DNA of 64,000 bases from Deltaproteobacteria bacterium (GTDB lineage Bacteria; Desulfobacterota; Desulfuromonadia; Geobacterales; Pseudopelobacteraceae), in NCBI GenBank assembly GCA_021780495.1, contig JAJXYO010000015.1, positions 1 through 64,000 of the forward strand, read 5' to 3'. Below the pieces are notes generated by a model. The model saw only the letters and a program-made list of their open reading frames with translations. It was not told the DNA's origin and made no database searches. The translations under genes were made by a program, and so were the position numbers. Every line of letters begins with the position of its first letter. The stretch's first letter is position 1. This document shows positions 54,601 through 64,000 of this stretch, one piece after another.

Positions 54601-54807
54601 TCCGAGCTCCGCAGGCCGCTGGGCATCTCCATTATCGGCGGCCTGGTGATCAGTCAGATCCTGACGCTCTACACCACCCCGGTCATCTATCTGGCCTTTG
54701 ACCGGCTGGCGCGGAGACGAAAAGCAACCCCTCCCAGCCTCCCCTTGTCAGGGGAGGGGCTTTCCTTCCCCCCTGACAAGGGGGGATCGAGGGGGGTTGT
54801 TCTTTGA
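51661..54807 (+). CDS. mdtB: MdtB-like RND multidrug transporter subunit
   Basis: A 1048-residue pump subunit with duplicate 6-helix halves; proton-relay DD in [15 protein letters not shown]. MdtB and MdtC form a mixed trimer that exports bile salts, novobiocin and similar compounds in E. coli. The last 27 residues (from about 1022) are encoded by a palindromic repeat (54726-54798) and are rich in P, G, S: they look unlike any RND tail. Overlaps the mdtA and mdtC genes by 4 bases each. Confidence 0.94.
54726..54798. repeat. REP-like palindromic element inside the mdtB 3' end
   Basis: An imperfect inverted repeat. The left arm is AACCCCTCCCAGCC then TCCCCTTGTCAGGGG (54726-54754), the right arm CCCCCCTGACAAGGGGGG then ATCGAGGGGGGTT (54768-54798), each also locally palindromic (CCCCTTGTCAGGGG; CCCCCCTGACAAGGGGGG). 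The spacer is 13 bases. This 'CCCCTTGTCAGGGG' unit recurs as short dispersed repeats in many bacterial genomes as I know them. It is in frame with mdtB and ends 5 bases before the mdtC start. Confidence 0.75.
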
Positions 54808-57800
54808 ACATCTCGGCCATATTCATACGCCGGCCGGTGGCCACGACGCTCCTGACCCTGGGGCTGCTGCTGGCCGGCATCATCGCGTTCCGCCTGCTGC
54901 CGGTGTCGCCGCTGCCCCAGGTGGACTTCCCGACCATCTCGGTTTCGGCCTCCCTGCCCGGCGCCGATCCGCAGACCATGTCCACCTCGGTAGCCGCGCC
55001 CCTTGAGCGGCAGTTCGGCCGGATCGCCGGGGTGTCCGAAATGACATCCGTCAGCAATCGCGGCTCTACCAGCATCACCCTGCAATTTGATCTGAATCGG
55101 GATATCAATGGCGCTGCCCGGGATGTTCAGGCGGCCATCAATGCCGCCCGCAGCTACCTGCCGGCCAATCTCCCCGGCAACCCGTCCTATCGCAAGGTAA
55201 ACCCGGCGGATGCGCCGATCATGATCCTGTCGTTGACCTCGGACAGCGTCAGCAAGCCCGCGATGTACGATGCCGCTTCGTCGATTCTTGCCCAAAAGCT
55301 GTCACAGGTCAAAGGGGTCGGCCAGGTCTTCGTCGGCGGCGGGGCCTTGCCGGCGGTCCGGGCGGAGCTGAACCCCCTGGCGCTCAACAAGTACGGTATC
55401 AGCCTGGCCAAAGTACGTGCGGTACTGGCCGCCACCAACGTCAATCGCCCCAAAGGGCTGCTCTCCAACGACACGACCGCCTGGGAGATCCAGGCCAATG
55501 ATCAGCTGAAAAAGGCCGCCGACTATCGCGACCTGGTGATCAGTTATAAGGCGGGCTCAGCGGTGCGACTGGCCGATGTGGCCAGCGTCGAGGATTCGGT
55601 GGAGGATCTGCGGGTCAGCGGCTTTGTCAACGGTGCCCCGGCGGTCATGGTGATCATCTTCCGGCAACCGGGCGTCAATATCATCGACACCGTGGACAAC
55701 ATCCGCGCCCTGTTGCCGCAGCTGTCGGCCGCCATGCCGGGAGGGGTCAAGCTTTCGGTTGTGCTTGACCGGACACCACCTATTCGCGGCTCGCTGCATG
55801 ATGTTGAAATCTCGCTGCTGCTGTCCGGGGTTCTGGTGGTCCTGGTGGTGTTCTGGTTCCTGCGCAACGTCCGGGCGACCATGATCCCGGCTGTGGCTGT
55901 GACCTCTTCCATCATCGGCACCTTCGCGGTCATGTACCTGTTCGGCTATTCTCTGGATAATCTCTCCCTGATGGCCCTGACGATCGCGACCGGATTCGTG
56001 GTCGATGACGCCATCGTCGTTTTGGAAAACGTTACCCGTTACCGGGAGATGGGGCAGTCCCCGCTGCAGGCGGCGCTTAACGGCAGCAAGGAAATTGCCT
56101 TCACGGTCCTCTCCATGAGCGTTTCACTAGTGGCGGTTTTTATACCGATCCTGCTGATGGGTGGGATGGTCGGGCGTCTGTTCAGGGAGTTTGCCGTAAC
56201 GCTCTCGGCTGCTATCATGGTCTCCCTGGTGGTCTCGCTGACCGTGACTCCCATGATGTGCGCCACCGTCCTCAAGGACGAAGCCGCCAAGCCGCACGGC
56301 CGGATCTACCGGGCCAGCGAGAGCCTGTTCACCTGGATGCACAGTCACTACGAAACATCGCTGCGCTGGTCGCTGGACCATCGCCGGATCATGATCGGTG
56401 TGATGATGGCAACGGTTGCGCTGAGCATCTCGCTCTTTGTCATTATTCCCAAAGGCTTCTTTCCGGAGCAGGATACCGGCCGGATCGCCGGGAGTATCCA
56501 GGCCGCCCAGGATATCTCGTTCCAGGCGATGCGGGCCAAGTTGATCCAGATCGTGGGGATTATCAAGCAGGATCCGGATGTGGAATATGTGATCGGGTTT
56601 ACCGGAGGGGGAGGGGGCTCCACGGTCAACTCCGGCAGGATGTTCATCTCGCTGCAACCCTTTGCGAAACGGAAGTCAACGGCCCGCCAGGTGATAGCCC
56701 GGCTGCGCAAAAAACTGGCCCACATCCCCGGCGCCCCTACCTTCCTGCAGCCGGTGCAGGACCTGCGCGTGGGGGGCCGGATCAGCAACGCCCTCTACCA
56801 GTATACGTTGCAGGGGGAAAATGTTACCGAACTGAACAGCTGGAGCCAGCGGGTGCTGCAGCGCATGCGCACCCTGCCGGGGCTGGTGGATGTCAGCAGC
56901 GATCAGCAGAACGGCGGTCTGGAAGCGGACCTGGTCATTGACCGCCCGACCGCTTCCAGGCTGGGCATAGCGCCGCAACAGATCGACGAAGCGCTCTACG
57001 ATGCCTTTGGCCAGCGGCAGGTCTCCGTCATCTATACACCGCTCAACCAGTATCATGTGGTCATGGAAGCGGCCCCCGCCTTCTGGCAGCAACCGGACAC
57101 GCTGCGTGATATCCATGTGCTGTCGTCAACCGGCCAGATGGTGCCGTTATCGGCCTTTACCTCGTTCAAAACCAATGCCAGCGCCCTGGCGGTGAATCAT
57201 CAGAGCCAGTTTCCGGCGGTGACCACCTCCTTTAATCTGGCGCCGGGGGTCTCACTGGGAAAGGCGGTCGCGACGATAGAAAAAGCCACCCGTGAGATGG
57301 GCATGCCGGCGAGTATCCGCGGGCGATTTGCCGGAACGGCCCAGGCGTTTCAGGATTCGCTCAAAAGCCAGCCGCTTCTGATTCTGGCTGCGCTGCTGGC
57401 GGTCTACATCGTACTGGGGATCCTCTATGAAAGCTATATCCACCCCCTGACCATCCTTTCGACGCTCCCCTCGGCCGGTGTGGGCGCCGTGGCTGCGCTG
57501 ATGATGTTCCGTTCCGACCTGAACCTGATTGCGATTATCGGCGTGATCCTGCTGATCGGCATCGTCAAGAAAAACGGCATCCTGATGGTGGATTTTGCCC
57601 TGGCGGTTCAGCGCCGCGAAGGGAAAACGCCCCGGGAGGCCATCTACGAGGCCTGCCTGCTCCGCTTCCGGCCGATCATGATGACCACCATGGCGGCCTT
57701 GTTTGGCGCGCTGCCATTGGCCTTGGGCACCGGCATCGGCTCCGAACTCAGGCGGCCTCTGGGGATCGCCATTGTCGGCGGACTGCTGTTCAGCCAGATG

Positions 57801-57923
57801 ATGACCCTCTATACCACACCGGTGGTCTACCTGTACCTTGACCGCTTTCGCATGTGGGTCGACAGGAAGCGGAATGGACAGAGGGCTGGAGCAAAATTGG
57901 ATATGAAACGGGAGGTCTCGTGA
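54804..57923 (+). CDS. mdtC: MdtC-like RND multidrug transporter subunit
   Basis: A 1039-residue second subunit of the MdtBC pump, with [14 protein letters not shown] proton-relay region and the family N-terminus [16 protein letters not shown]. It starts at TTG 54804, overlapping the mdtB stop (TTGA). The only ribosome-site-like sequence is GAGGGGGG (54789-54796), which belongs to the REP-like element. The end overlaps the OMF start by 4 bases (GTGA). All four transporter genes are therefore translationally coupled. Confidence 0.94.
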
Positions 57924-59350
57924 AACATACAGGTGCATCAATCAGGATGATCATGGCCGTCTGCCTGCTGCTGGCGGCCGGCTGCACGGTTGGCCCTGAC
58001 TATGTCAGGCCGACAGCGGTTGCAACCATGCCGGCAACCTTCAAGGAACAGGAAGGCTGGAAGCTGGCACAGCCCGGCGACGGCAGCCTGGGGGCACGCT
58101 GGTGGGAGCTGTACCACGACCCCGTGCTCAACTCTCTGGAAGCACAGGTGGCCATATCAAACCTCACGATTGCCACTGCCGAGGCCCAGTTTCGTCAGGC
58201 GCGGGCATTGGTGCAGTCAGCCAGGGCCGGTTACTACCCGACACTTTCTATCGGCGCGGCAGCGGCCCGGTCGCAAAAATCCGGGAATCTTGGCGCAGCA
58301 AAAGGTACAACGTCACCTGCACCCTCGTCAGATTTCCAGCTGCCCTTGGATGCGAGCTGGGAGCTTGATCTGTGGGGCAGGATCCGCCGGGGAGTGGAGG
58401 CCAATCAGGCCAGCGCCCAGGCCAGCGCAGCCGACCTGGCGGCCGCGACGCTGAGTGCCCAGGCCGCGCTGGCCGGCGACTACTTTCAGCTGCGGATACT
58501 GGATGCCCAGAAACAGCTGCTCGAAGCAAGCGCAGCCGCATACCGCACGTCCCTTGAAATGACGAAAAACCGCTATGCGGCCGGGATAGCGGCCAGGTCG
58601 GATGTGCTCCAGGCCGAGACACAACTGAGAAGCACCGAGGCGCAGGCGATCGATCTCGGCGTGCAGCGTGCCCAGTTGGAGCACGCCATAGCCGTGCTGA
58701 TCGGCAAAGCTCCCGTTGCCTTTTCACTCCCTGCTACGGTATTATCAACGACCGTCCCGCCCATACCGATGGTTCTCCCTTCCGAGCTTCTGGAACGACG
58801 GCCTGATATCGCGTCGTCCGAGAGGAGGATGGCCGCTGCCAATGCCCAGATCGGTGTGGCGCAGGCAGCCTATTACCCGACCGTCCAGTTGTCGGCCGCC
58901 GCCGGCTTTGAGGCGGCGAGTACCGTTTCCTGGGTTACCTGGCCGAGCCGCCTGTGGTCTCTCGGTTCACTGGTTTCGGCGACTCTTTTCGATGGCGGCC
59001 TGCGCAAGGCCCAGTCCGAGCAGGCTTTGGCAGCCTATGATGCGACGGTAGCCGCGTACCGGGAGACCGTGCTGACGGCGTTTCAGGGGGTTGAGGATAA
59101 TCTGGCGGCGCTACGCGTTCTCGAGGAAGAGATCCGGGTGCAGGATCAGGCGGTACGGGCGGCACAGCAGGTGGTAACCATCACCACCAATCAGTACCAG
59201 GCTGGCACAGTGGCCTATCTCAATGTGCTGGTCGCCCAAACGACCGCTCTTGCCAACGAGCGGACCGCCCTGGGGCTTGCCGGACAAAAGCTTGCCGCCA
59301 GTGTCCTGCTGGTTAAGGCCTTGGGTGGAGGATGGGCGGTACAACCTTGA
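57920..59350 (+). CDS. Outer-membrane efflux lipoprotein (NodT/OprM family)
   Basis: A 476-residue outer-membrane channel completing the tripartite pump. Lipobox LLAAGC with the usual CTVGPDYVRP after it, two repeated domains with helical barrel segments (SAAAYRTSLEMTKNRYAAGIA; split) and the closing AGTVAYLNVLVAQTTAL. GTG start at 57920 with GGGAGG upstream; it overlaps mdtC (GTGA). It may also serve the RND pump at 39.5-43.7 kb, which has no OMF of its own. Confidence 0.93.
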   Translation: MKHTGASIRMIMAVCLLLAAGCTVGPDYVRPTAVATMPATFKEQEGWKLAQPGDGSLGARWWELYHDPVLNSLEAQVAISNLTIATAEAQFRQARALVQSARAGYYPTLSIGAAAARSQKSGNLGAAKGTTSPAPSSDFQLPLDASWELDLWGRIRRGVEANQASAQASAADLAAATLSAQAALAGDYFQLRILDAQKQLLEASAAAYRTSLEMTKNRYAAGIAARSDVLQAETQLRSTEAQAIDLGVQRAQLEHAIAVLIGKAPVAFSLPATVLSTTVPPIPMVLPSELLERRPDIASSERRMAAANAQIGVAQAAYYPTVQLSAAAGFEAASTVSWVTWPSRLWSLGSLVSATLFDGGLRKAQSEQALAAYDATVAAYRETVLTAFQGVEDNLAALRVLEEEIRVQDQAVRAAQQVVTITTNQYQAGTVAYLNVLVAQTTALANERTALGLAGQKLAASVLLVKALGGGWAVQP

Positions 59351-59915: not shown

Positions 59916-59937
59916 AATAGATGGCATGCTATCTATT
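59916..59937. promoter_or_regulatory. Near-perfect palindrome before the marR gene (probable operator)
   Basis: AATAGAT-G-GCATGC-T-ATCTATT: a 22-bp palindrome with one mismatched pair, ending 4 bases before the ATG at 59942. This is the size and position of MarR-type operators. CATAAT (59913-59918) just upstream could be the -10. Confidence 0.6.
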
Positions 59938-59941
59938 GCAC

Positions 59942-60406
59942 ATGAATGCACCTGCCTCAAAAATTGACCGCAACAACCTCCTGTACCGGCTTGGGATCTT
60001 GACGCGACGCTGGCGCCAGGTCCTTGACAATGAGTTTCAGGCTGCCGGGTTAACGGATGCAACCTGGCGTCCTCTGCTGCATCTCCACCTGCTGGGGGAT
60101 GGCGTCCGCCAGAAGGATCTGGCGGCGTCCATCGGCATTGAGGGGCCCTCCCTGGTCCGACTGCTTGATACCCTGGTAACCAAGGAGCTGGTCCAGCGAT
60201 CCGAGGATGGCACCGATCGTCGTGCCAAGCTCCTCCGATTGACCCAGGAAGGGCAGCTGGTCGTCGCCCGGATCCGGGAAATCCTGACACCCCTTGAAAA
60301 ACAGCTGCTCAGTGATTTCAGCGACGACGATATTTACCGGTTTGGACAGAACATCCTGGCTCTTGAGTCAAGCGTGAACGATGTACGGCGGCGAATAAAG
60401 CAATGA
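59942..60406 (+). CDS. MarR-family transcription regulator
   Basis: A 154-residue winged-helix regulator starting MNAPASKIDRNN (a start at 59921 would add 7 residues and lie inside the palindrome). The DNA-binding part is GVRQKDLAASIGIEGPSLVRLLDTL followed by the wing ERSEDGTDRRAKLLRLT-like segment (RSEDGTDRRAKL). MarR proteins control efflux and stress genes and dissociate from DNA on binding phenolic ligands. It follows the pump operon and could regulate it or the genes downstream. Confidence 0.88.
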   Translation: MNAPASKIDRNNLLYRLGILTRRWRQVLDNEFQAAGLTDATWRPLLHLHLLGDGVRQKDLAASIGIEGPSLVRLLDTLVTKELVQRSEDGTDRRAKLLRLTQEGQLVVARIREILTPLEKQLLSDFSDDDIYRFGQNILALESSVNDVRRRIKQ

Positions 60407-60598
60407 GAAGGGGCCGTCTGCCGTACGCCTTTCAGTGCGAGATGCCACGCCTCAGGTTTGCGGTCCCTGACCGCAGGAAAACAAGCACCCGTGAAACGCA
60501 TAAAACCGTGCCGGCCGACTGGTGTTGTTCCTGTTCCCAACGGTACGGCGTTGCGAACATACCGCCGGTTGCACACGCTACAGAAACCCGGAGCACGT

Positions 60599-61876
60599 AT
60601 GTATATCCTGACCATCACATGCTGGAGCCATAACATCGAGTACCACCTGTTTTCCCGGGATGATCGGGCACTGCTCGCTGCGGGAATTGTTGAACGCGTG
60701 GGACTGGGCGGTTCGTTCATCACCCAGAGCGTCCCCGGCCGGGAACCGTTCAGGATAGAGGCGGGCGACAACGATCACCAGAGCGCTGTCGCCCTTATCG
60801 TCGCTACCCTGAGCGATCCGCAGCACGGGATCATTTCGGATCCGCAGGAAATATCAGCCGTTGGCCACCGGGTAGTGCATGGCGGCGAGGAATTCCGGCA
60901 TTCGGTGCGGATCGACGAGCGGGTCCTCAACTCTATCCGGACGCTGCAACATCTGGCGCCATTACACTCGGTTCCCAATATCGCAGGTATCGAGGCGGCC
61001 ATGCTGCACCTGCCTGCTGTTCCCCACGTGGCGATTCTCGATACCGCCTTCCACGCGTCCATGCCGGCGTGTGCCTACCTCTATCCGCTCCCCTATGAAT
61101 GGTATCAAAACTATGGCGTCCGCCGTTACGGTTTCCATGGCCCATCGCATCTCTACCTTTCGCGGCGGGCCTCCGTACTGCTCGGCAAGCCGGTCAATGA
61201 CTGCAACCTGATCACCATCCACCTCGACCGGGGGGTCTCGCTCTGCGCCATCAGGAAGGGGGTCTCCGTGGATACCAGCATGGGAATGACACCACTTGAG
61301 GGGGTGGTCATGGGTACGCGCTGCGGCGACATCGATCCCGGTATTCATGCCTATATGATGCAGATGCTGAACCTTTCACCGAAGGAAATGGAGCAACTCC
61401 TCAACAACAAAAGCGGTGTTGCCGGCATTACCGGGCAGCGTCTCGACCGGCAGCAGTTTTTGCAGGCCGCTTTAGCTGGCGACCCCCGCTGCTCGTTGGC
61501 CCTGGAGATCGAGACCTACCGCCTCAAGAAATATATCGGATCGTATCTGGCGATTACCGGGCCGCTGGATGCAATCGTTTTTACCACCGGTTCCGGCGCG
61601 TCGGAATGGCGGGTGCGGGAGATGGTGCTGGAAGGGCTGGAGTGCTTCGGCATCCGGCTTGAGCGGGACAACAATCGCGCGCTCCGGTCAGGGGCGGAAG
61701 AGGTGGAGATTACCGCTGCGGGGGCGCTGATCAGAACCTTCGTCATTCCGGCAAATGAAGAGCTGGTCATTGCCGAGGATGTCGCTGCGGTTATCTCCGG
61801 GGACCGCAGCGATCATCGTCAGTACGATTATGTCTTCGCAAACGCCGACTTCATCCCTGCCGGTTCTGTCGCATAA
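60599..61876 (+). CDS. Divergent acetate/propionate kinase family protein
   Basis: A 425-residue homologue of acetate kinase. Kept: GHRVVHGGE (substrate Arg), LAPLHSVPN, ILDTAFHASMP (catalytic Asp), YGFHGPSH, DTSMGMTPLEGVVMG and NEEL near the end. Changed: the N-terminal N-x-G-S-S-S-x-K is TCWSHNIE, and HLGNGAS is HLDRGVS. ATG 60599 is chosen because GGAG precedes it by 6 bases and MYILTI aligns with the family start. Activity as an acetate kinase is doubtful. No pta gene adjoins it. Confidence 0.85.
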   Translation: MYILTITCWSHNIEYHLFSRDDRALLAAGIVERVGLGGSFITQSVPGREPFRIEAGDNDHQSAVALIVATLSDPQHGIISDPQEISAVGHRVVHGGEEFRHSVRIDERVLNSIRTLQHLAPLHSVPNIAGIEAAMLHLPAVPHVAILDTAFHASMPACAYLYPLPYEWYQNYGVRRYGFHGPSHLYLSRRASVLLGKPVNDCNLITIHLDRGVSLCAIRKGVSVDTSMGMTPLEGVVMGTRCGDIDPGIHAYMMQMLNLSPKEMEQLLNNKSGVAGITGQRLDRQQFLQAALAGDPRCSLALEIETYRLKKYIGSYLAITGPLDAIVFTTGSGASEWRVREMVLEGLECFGIRLERDNNRALRSGAEEVEITAAGALIRTFVIPANEELVIAEDVAAVISGDRSDHRQYDYVFANADFIPAGSVA

Positions 61877-62093: not shown

Positions 62094-62708
62094 ATGTGCA
62101 AGGTATTGATCGTACATTACAGCATGTATGGCCACATCTACAAGATGGCAGAAGCGGTCGCCGAAGGTGTTCGCGGGGTTGAAGGCTGCGAGGCTGTCGT
62201 CAAGCGCGTACCGGAAACCCTGACTGAAGAAGTGCTGGGTATGATGGGGGCCACGGAGGCCCAGAAGAGCATGGCCCACATACCGGTTGCCAGCGTCGAT
62301 GACCTGGCCGGGGCCGATGCGATCATCTTCGGCACCCCGACCCGTTTCGGCAACATGTGCGGCCAGATGCGCCAGTTCCTGGATGCAACCGGAGGGCTCT
62401 GGATGAAAGGGGCGCTGGTCGGCAAGGTCGGCAGTGTCTTTGCCAGCTCGGCCACACAGCATGGCGGCCAGGAATCGACGATCCTCAGCTTTCATACAAC
62501 GCTCTTGCACCAGGGTATGGTGGTGGTGGGCCTGCCGTACTCGTTTGCCGGACAGATGGGGATTGCTGAAATCACCGGAGGATCACCATATGGCGCTTCA
62601 ACCATAACCGGCGGGCAGGGGGAGCGCATGCCCAGTGACAATGAACTGGCTGCCGCGCGCTATCAGGGCGCCCATGTGGCACGGATCGCATCGAGGCTGA
62701 AAGCGTAG
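62094..62708 (+). CDS. wrbA: NAD(P)H:quinone oxidoreductase, WrbA type
   Basis: A 204-residue flavodoxin-like enzyme that reduces quinones by two electrons, avoiding semiquinones. FMN-binding regions: [19 protein letters not shown] (N-terminal phosphate loop; split), [19 protein letters not shown] and the [13 protein letters not shown] segment. Length and motifs match WrbA. AAGGAGG 6 bases upstream. It probably helps with oxidative stress along with the neighbouring redox genes. Confidence 0.95.
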
Positions 62709-62862: not shown

Positions 62863-63789
62863 ATGACGAAGAGCAGTATACGGCACTGTGTGGGGATATG
62901 TTTGTTGTTGTCGTATCTGTTGTTGACTCCGGCGCCGGCCGCTGCGACCGAGGAATATGCCAAACAAACCGGTCAGGCCTGTGCGGTGTGTCACCTCGAC
63001 CCCGGTGGCGGGGGGGAGCTGACGGCTGCCGGCACATCCTTTTCCGTCAGGCAGCACGCCACGACAGAGCAGCCTGAAAAGGGTGCGTTCGTCAAGTGGT
63101 TCCGGCTGGCGGTTGGCTATCTCCATATGTTGACCGCCATTTTCTGGTTCGGCACGATCCTGTACGTGCACCTCATTCTCAAGCCGGCCTACGCGGCCAG
63201 CGGCCTGCCGCGCGGTGAACTGCGAGTGGGTGTCGTCTCGATGATCGTCATGGGCATAAGCGGTTCAATCCTGAGCTACTACCGGGTGACCTCCTTTGAT
63301 ATGCTTTTTCATTCCCGCTTTGGCATCCTTCTGCTCATCAAGGTTTGCCTCTATCTGGTAATGGTCATCTCGGCCCTGTTTGTCATCACCGTCATTGGCC
63401 CGCGCCTCAAGGCCTCACGGAAAGAGCCTGCTCTCACGGATGGCGGCGATGAATTGACCCTTGACGATCTGGCGGCATACGACGGGAAAGAGGGGCGACC
63501 GGCCTGGTTTGCGTTCGAAGGCATGATCTATGATGCGACCCGGAGCCCGCTCTGGAAGCAGGGGGTACACATGGGGAGGCACCCCGCCGGCAGCGACTTG
63601 ACGGAGGCCTTGAAACTCGCCCCGCATGGCCGTGAAAAGGTGCTTGCCATGCCGGAAGCAGGGGCTCTGGTTGCATCGGGCCCACGAAAAGCGCCGCTGC
63701 ACGAACGGGTGTTTTTCTTCATGGCACACATGAACCTGGCGATTGTTTTCATGATTGTCCTGATACTGTCGCTCTGGCGCTGGGGGTAA
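62863..63789 (+). CDS. Membrane fusion of c-heme, CopD-like and cytochrome b5-like domains
   Basis: A 308-residue protein. A signal/anchor (residues 10-28) precedes one heme motif C40-A-V-C43-H44; then four helices (about 76-180) with GYLHMLTAIFWFGTILYV, resembling the CopD copper-resistance membrane domain; then a soluble domain (about 197-265), ELTLDDLAAYDGKEG...FEGMIYDAT...HMGRHPAG, matching cytochrome b5-like heme/steroid-binding proteins; and a final helix. Such a fusion could pass electrons across the membrane between the two hemes. ATG has AGGAAAGAG upstream. Domain order is seen directly; the role is inferred. Confidence 0.78.
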   Translation: MTKSSIRHCVGICLLLSYLLLTPAPAAATEEYAKQTGQACAVCHLDPGGGGELTAAGTSFSVRQHATTEQPEKGAFVKWFRLAVGYLHMLTAIFWFGTILYVHLILKPAYAASGLPRGELRVGVVSMIVMGISGSILSYYRVTSFDMLFHSRFGILLLIKVCLYLVMVISALFVITVIGPRLKASRKEPALTDGGDELTLDDLAAYDGKEGRPAWFAFEGMIYDATRSPLWKQGVHMGRHPAGSDLTEALKLAPHGREKVLAMPEAGALVASGPRKAPLHERVFFFMAHMNLAIVFMIVLILSLWRWG

Positions 63790-63851
63790 GCACGGAGCGC
63801 CACGACATAACGCTACGCGAATCGAACGAATCATTATCCGGGGAGGCGCAG

Positions 63852-64000
63852 ATGAAAACAGTGATTATCGGCGGGATAGCCGGGGGGCTGTCGGCCGCCA
63901 GCCAGATCAAGCGCGAGCAACATGATGCACAGGTGATCGTACTGGAAAAATCGGGCGATGTTTCCTACGCCGCCTGCGGCATGCCCTACAACCTGTTCTA
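63852..64000 (+). CDS. CoA-disulfide reductase/NADH oxidase-like flavoprotein (partial, start only)
   Basis: The first 49 residues only; the gene runs off the window. The N-terminus MKTVIIGGIAGGLSAASQIKR is the FAD-binding fold of the CoA-disulfide reductase/Nox group, and SYAACGMPYNL carries the active-site cysteine (C43) in the family motif. GGGGAGG precedes the start. It probably forms a redox row with the heme membrane protein. Confidence 0.85.
   Translation, partial: MKTVIIGGIAGGLSAASQIKREQHDAQVIVLEKSGDVSYAACGMPYNLF

Follow-up and report, generated by a model that had tools for sequence, protein, structure and literature searches.

Electron supply to the periplasmic enzymes of nitrite, hydroxylamine and NO is known mainly through donors of the NapC/NrfH type. 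NapC, NrfH and CycB (cM552) are tetraheme c-type quinol dehydrogenases that are proposed to supply periplasmic nitrogen-oxide enzymes, HAO-family octahemes included, from the inner membrane; in Nautilia, a NapC-type donor to a reductive HAO has been proposed in the reverse-HURM of Nautilia profundicola (PMC3701875). The octaheme cytochromes of the HAO family (IhOCC, 4qo5; HAO, 1fgj) are known without any N-terminal module of c-heme, CopD-like and b5 parts. The archaeal b5-domain proteins of Hadesarchaea (6nzx; PMC7096707) and Methanococcoides (6vz6) have been solved only as soluble domains.

We analysed a window of 64,000 nucleotides (contig JAJXYO010000015.1, positions 1 to 64,000) from a Deltaproteobacteria bacterium (Desulfobacterota; Desulfuromonadia; Geobacterales; Pseudopelobacteraceae). 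Near its end lies a gene, here called T (62863–63789; T, its parts and its two flanking genes are on the plus strand), which encodes 308 amino acids comprising a signal peptide, a c-heme domain, a CopD-like membrane domain and an inserted b5 domain. T does not belong to the NapC/NrfH family: it has no PF03264 match and one CxxCH rather than four, and its membrane part is a CopD-like unit of four helices, combined with a b5 domain that is predicted to face the cytoplasm. The case for a NapC/NrfH-like role comes from gene fusion and gene neighbourhood. Among the open-licence papers searched, we found no description of this architecture.

Domain architecture and distribution of T

The N terminus of T is a signal peptide (residues 1–28, 62863–62946), with a model helix at residues 2–21 and a cleavage position placed by eye before a conserved ATEEYA. 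The following residues 29–74 (62947–63084), with a conserved C..CH and a GGGELT..G motif, are predicted to form a periplasmic c-heme domain. The heme attachment motif CAVCH (C40, C43 and H44; 62980–62994) is the single CxxCH that the preliminary description had noted behind a signal or anchor segment; signal helix and motif together point to an exported c-type cytochrome, and CAVCH is present in all 61 T sequences aligned and in the fused relatives described below. C40, C43, H44, H88, H103, K160, H236 and H255 are the same in every one of these 61 sequences. Beyond its heme motif the c domain has no conserved Met, His or Lys and so no conserved distal heme ligand. A match of the c domain to 6qvm spanned only about 30 residues and was not used.

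A search for the same domain architecture recovered full-length homologues (46–76% identity) from about 80 genomes among 277 of the class; within the order, 65 of 141 genomes have T. Together with the CxxCH in 61/61 members, this distribution places the architecture far beyond chance. T also occurs in records labelled Nitrospirae, Aminicenantes, Calditrichia, Glassbacteria and Desulfobulbales, which are mostly metagenome-assembled genomes, with misbinning possible for single cases. In three genomes T is split over at least two reading frames (L045 in G182, L049 in G186, and L052/L127 in G194); one of these is a single-contig genome, and the splits may be frameshifts, pseudogenes or assembly errors.

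An AlphaFold model of T built from 61 sequences (mean pLDDT 82, pTM 0.64) contained, besides the signal helix, four helices: TM1 (residues 75–104, 63085–63174), which carries the invariant H88 and H103; TM2 (residues 117–141, 63211–63285); TM3 (residues 152–187, 63316–63423), which carries the invariant K160; and TM4 (residues 279–307, 63697–63783). The invariant residues of TM1 and TM3 extend to the fused relatives. The preliminary description had proposed a c-heme motif, four CopD-like helices, a b5-like domain and a final helix. Its three domains and last helix were borne out, whereas the model has three helices before the b5 domain and one after it, which probably places b5 in the TM3–TM4 loop of a four-helix unit. 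The membrane part matches Pfam CopD (PF05425; 35.2 bits against a cut-off of 32.1, residues 121–189), as do all 61 members. Three stand-alone CopD-family proteins of the phylum align to it with E values of 2e-8 to 1e-6, against 0.2 for the best shuffled control. These alignments bring a TM1 His, a TM3 Lys and a Gly-Pro after TM3 into register with T, which differs from the CopD family in its c-heme and b5 domains and its second conserved His (H103). Because they cover TM4 weakly, we infer, rather than observe, that b5 is inserted in the TM3–TM4 loop of a CopD-like unit.

For the membrane part, Foldseek gave no significant hit among solved structures. We take H88 and K160 to resemble the His and Lys of HemJ, but T was rejected as a HemJ since PF03653 matched neither the protein nor anything in its own genome. 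We also rejected a bis-His membrane heme b: the only invariant His residues in this part are H88 and H103, and as they share one helix, TM1, at a spacing of 15 residues, a ligand pair within one chain is not evident. In a separate locus (L225), an ORF of about 300 amino acids contains two tandem CopD-like units, each with a TM1 His and a TM3 Lys.

The b5 domain (residues 199–272, 63457–63678) lies between helices 152–187 and 279–307 and includes, at residues 236–243, the HMGRHPAG motif recognized in the preliminary description. Its score against Pfam Cyt-b5 (PF00173; residues 199–263) is 19.1 bits, below the cut-off of 23.7, although 60 of the 61 members match at E ≤ 0.1 and some fused relatives exceed the cut-off. 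The b5 identity of T is drawn from solved structures: phmmer matched 6vz6 at 8e-15 and 6nzx at 1.5e-14, and the fold gave Foldseek TM-scores of 0.94 and 0.92, respectively (on the targets). These archaeal proteins share 40–44% identity with the T domain (Foldseek) and the pattern HxxxH..G.DLT..APH; they differ in that the T domain is embedded in a membrane protein of four helices that also has a c-heme site. Membership in the MAPR/PGRMC group was rejected (PGRMC1 4x8y at E 0.006 against 5e-23 for 6nzx). Every member has H236 and H255, and 60/61 have H240; H236 (or H240) and H255 are the likely heme ligands. Stand-alone b5 proteins of about 105 amino acids and of the same subtype are common in Desulfuromonadia outside the order (L153–L168). 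They have neither the c heme nor the CopD-like part, mostly carry one hydrophobic C-terminal segment after b5, and have gene neighbourhoods that were uninformative.

Topology and fusion to octaheme cytochromes

The preliminary description had pictured a periplasmic c heme and a second heme domain linked through the membrane. Counts of Lys and Arg favour an inside position for the TM1–TM2 loop and the TM3–b5 linker and an outside position for the c domain and the TM2–TM3 loop. A stronger argument comes from fused relatives. When T residues 28–190 were searched against 395 genomes of the phylum, some matches fell in ORFs of about 730–800 amino acids. Each of the ten that we read, from ten genomes, had one N-terminal CxxCH, the membrane and b5 parts of T, and then eight further CxxCH motifs, and C40, C43, H44, H88, H103, K160, H236 and H255 of T were kept. 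Such a polypeptide would hold nine c-heme sites and one b5. As c hemes are attached outside the cytoplasm, CxxCH motifs at both ends of these proteins indicate that both ends of the module are periplasmic; four helices, with b5 after the third, then make b5 cytoplasmic. Charges, the N-terminal CxxCH and the eight-CxxCH relatives thus agree in placing the c-heme site and b5 on opposite faces of the membrane.

The C-terminal part of the fused relatives belongs to PF13447 (E values of 7e-28 to 8e-35 in six tested), and for the one compared with the PDB the closest structures were the octaheme cytochrome of Ignicoccus (4qo5) and hydroxylamine oxidoreductases. It is this C-terminal domain, not T itself, that is shared with the HAO family.

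Genomic context of T

The preliminary description had suggested that electrons might pass to or from a flavoprotein that starts 62 bases after T. This neighbour, a CoA-disulfide-reductase-like protein of 444 amino acids, does begin at an ATG at 63852, 62 bases past the stop codon of T, and runs beyond the window (63852–64000) to G000:C13:65186. Only about seven of 81 named loci have it just downstream of T, one of them with a further gene in between, and these loci all belong to a single clade of close relatives. As it does not recur outside that clade, we rejected it as a general conserved partner; it may at most be a local one. The neighbour upstream of T, a WrbA-type NAD(P)H:quinone oxidoreductase (62094–62708), did not recur in the relatives examined. 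Further upstream in the window, translations read by eye showed an RND-type efflux transporter and, after it, an outer-membrane-factor-like protein (54804–59350) and a MarR-like gene (59921–60406), and an acetate-kinase family protein (PF00871) is encoded at 60458–61876, ahead of WrbA and T.

In the genome of the window, T and the flavoprotein are followed by DUF488, RIC (ScdA/YtfE type), NDH-2-like, NrfH, NrfA and NapH-like genes. Two separate groups of relatives have T near narGHJI (NarG confirmed by TIGR01580) and a c-type cytochrome, reading in the same direction in one group and divergently in the other. In Geomobilimonas and two Nitrospirae metagenome-assembled genomes T lies near norCB, and in one of these a comparison with 3o0r confirmed NorB. 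Hcp is close to T in three loci, and L075, L100 and L129 have HAO-like genes nearby. Of the fused forms, the one in L192 has an Hcp-like gene nearby, and the one in L189 adjoins genes that resemble NapC/NrfH and HAO, as judged by eye from sequence. Altogether, NarG/H, NorB/C, Hcp, RIC or NrfA/H occurred within about 7 kb of T in 19 of 81 loci, against a rough chance expectation of one to two for loci that are not independent. Genes around T were assigned simply as the longest ORFs, a procedure that may miss small genes. Outside a few clades, most loci had no core nitrogen-oxide gene near T, and those of the Geomonas clade are among them. Loci of the Geomonas type (L084, L086, L088–L091, L107 and related) instead have a large gene of about 900 amino acids on one side of T and a gene for a GGDEF protein on the other; farther along there is often a gene resembling nitrite/sulfite reductase. 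We also observed an exported protein of about 230 amino acids, with no Pfam match, that recurs in nitrogen-oxide clusters near T (L002:13678–14370, which is G000:C13:71677–72369; relatives in L054/L075, L057/L074 and L065/L099).

Across genomes, RIC was found in 48 of 65 Geobacterales-type genomes of the order with T and in 19 of 76 without it (p=6e-9; p=5e-5 after one genus was dropped), whereas co-occurrence with NrfA was not significant without that genus (p=0.24); shared ancestry inflates all of these association statistics. For HcpR of Geobacter and Desulfuromonas, the published motif is wyTTGACnnnnGTCAArw and the regulon includes nrfHA, ndh and nar (PMC1274295). Exact TTGAYNNNNRTCAA boxes of this HcpR/FNR type lie upstream of T in five loci (L078, L131, L135, L146 and L149), against an expectation of about one even when the raised frequency of boxes in such loci is allowed for. 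In the genome of the window, boxes of the TTGAYNNNNRTCAA type precede RIC and NrfH, and none lies directly upstream of T.

A proposed electron-transfer module for nitrogen-oxide metabolism

Because relatives adjoin or are fused to enzymes of nitrite, hydroxylamine and NO, T probably wires electrons across the membrane. The reading that we favour, with modest confidence, is that T is an inner-membrane electron-transfer module serving the metabolism of these nitrogen oxides. The CopD-like four-helix unit would connect a mono-c-heme domain on the periplasmic side to b5, which would sit in the cytoplasm, inserted between TM3 and TM4. Electrons would most likely come from the cytoplasm or the quinone pool, pass through b5 and/or the membrane part to the c heme, and be handed on to periplasmic multiheme nitrogen-oxide enzymes; in some relatives that enzyme would be covalently attached, as the C-terminal octaheme domain of the HAO family. 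The domains, their conservation, the topology, the fusion, the genomic association and the boxes in some relatives support this module; we infer heme occupancy, electron direction, any heme that the membrane part may hold, and the identities of donor and acceptor. Counting against the module are the lack of an HcpR-type box directly ahead of T in its own genome, the majority of loci outside a few clades, where core nitrogen-oxide genes are missing nearby, the NrfA association that loses significance with one genus removed, and the lack of a conserved distal ligand on the c heme and of an evident His pair for a heme in the membrane. The preliminary description was thus confirmed in part as an observation and supported in part as an interpretation.

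The same module could run in reverse, with electrons from the periplasmic oxidation of hydroxylamine or NO by an HAO-like enzyme entering the quinone pool or reaching cytoplasmic b5 clients. HAO enzymes may work oxidatively or reductively, and a change from the reductive to the oxidative form has been reported within Desulfobacterota (PMC12758564), which together with the HAO-family fusion would suit this direction. We nevertheless consider it unlikely: the genes that recur beside T serve reduction or detoxification (nar, nrf, nor, hcp and RIC), and the fused tail best matches IhOCC (4qo5) rather than HAO of N. europaea, with the diagnostic cross-linking Tyr of HAO not placeable in it. It is also rather unlikely that T is a general inner-membrane shuttle tied to the adjoining flavoprotein or other donors, with the nitrogen-oxide link local to some clades. 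The many loci that have no nitrogen-oxide neighbours, and the flavoprotein adjacent or nearly so in about seven close relatives, speak for such a shuttle, but the flavoprotein does not recur beyond one clade, which weakens the partner idea, and the nitrogen-oxide link recurs in separate groups with different gene orders as well as in a gene fusion.

Two further explanations assign T no conducting role. T might be an NO- or redox-responsive heme protein whose c heme binds NO and which signals or scavenges rather than conducts; the c domain, with no Met, His or Lys conserved beyond its CxxCH, and the NO-related neighbours are consistent with this idea, which we regard as distinctly improbable given that T has no output domain and that a cytoplasmic b5 and, in relatives, a covalently attached octaheme enzyme better fit electron transfer. 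Or T might handle copper, in the manner of CopD, or heme, with its redox domains merely carried along. This seems very improbable. The CopD match in every member and the TM1 His and TM3 Lys common to stand-alone CopD-family proteins speak for it; against it, T scores 37.3 bits on the NCBIfam CopD equivalog for copper homeostasis (NF033808), where 195 is required, HemJ is unmatched, and no copper gene recurred among the neighbours identified.

We tentatively propose, as a possibility that falls short of an even chance, that T represents an undescribed class of trans-membrane redox modules, which would carry cytoplasmic or quinone electrons to periplasmic nitrogen-oxide enzymes independently of NapC/NrfH and, in some lineages, form one polypeptide with an HAO-type octaheme. 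T is directly testable in culturable Geobacterales. If the proposal is correct, T would be a second solution to the wiring of periplasmic nitrogen-oxide enzymes, one in which both faces of the membrane have a heme site, and would give a bacterial b5 domain a role in anaerobic nitrogen-oxide metabolism.
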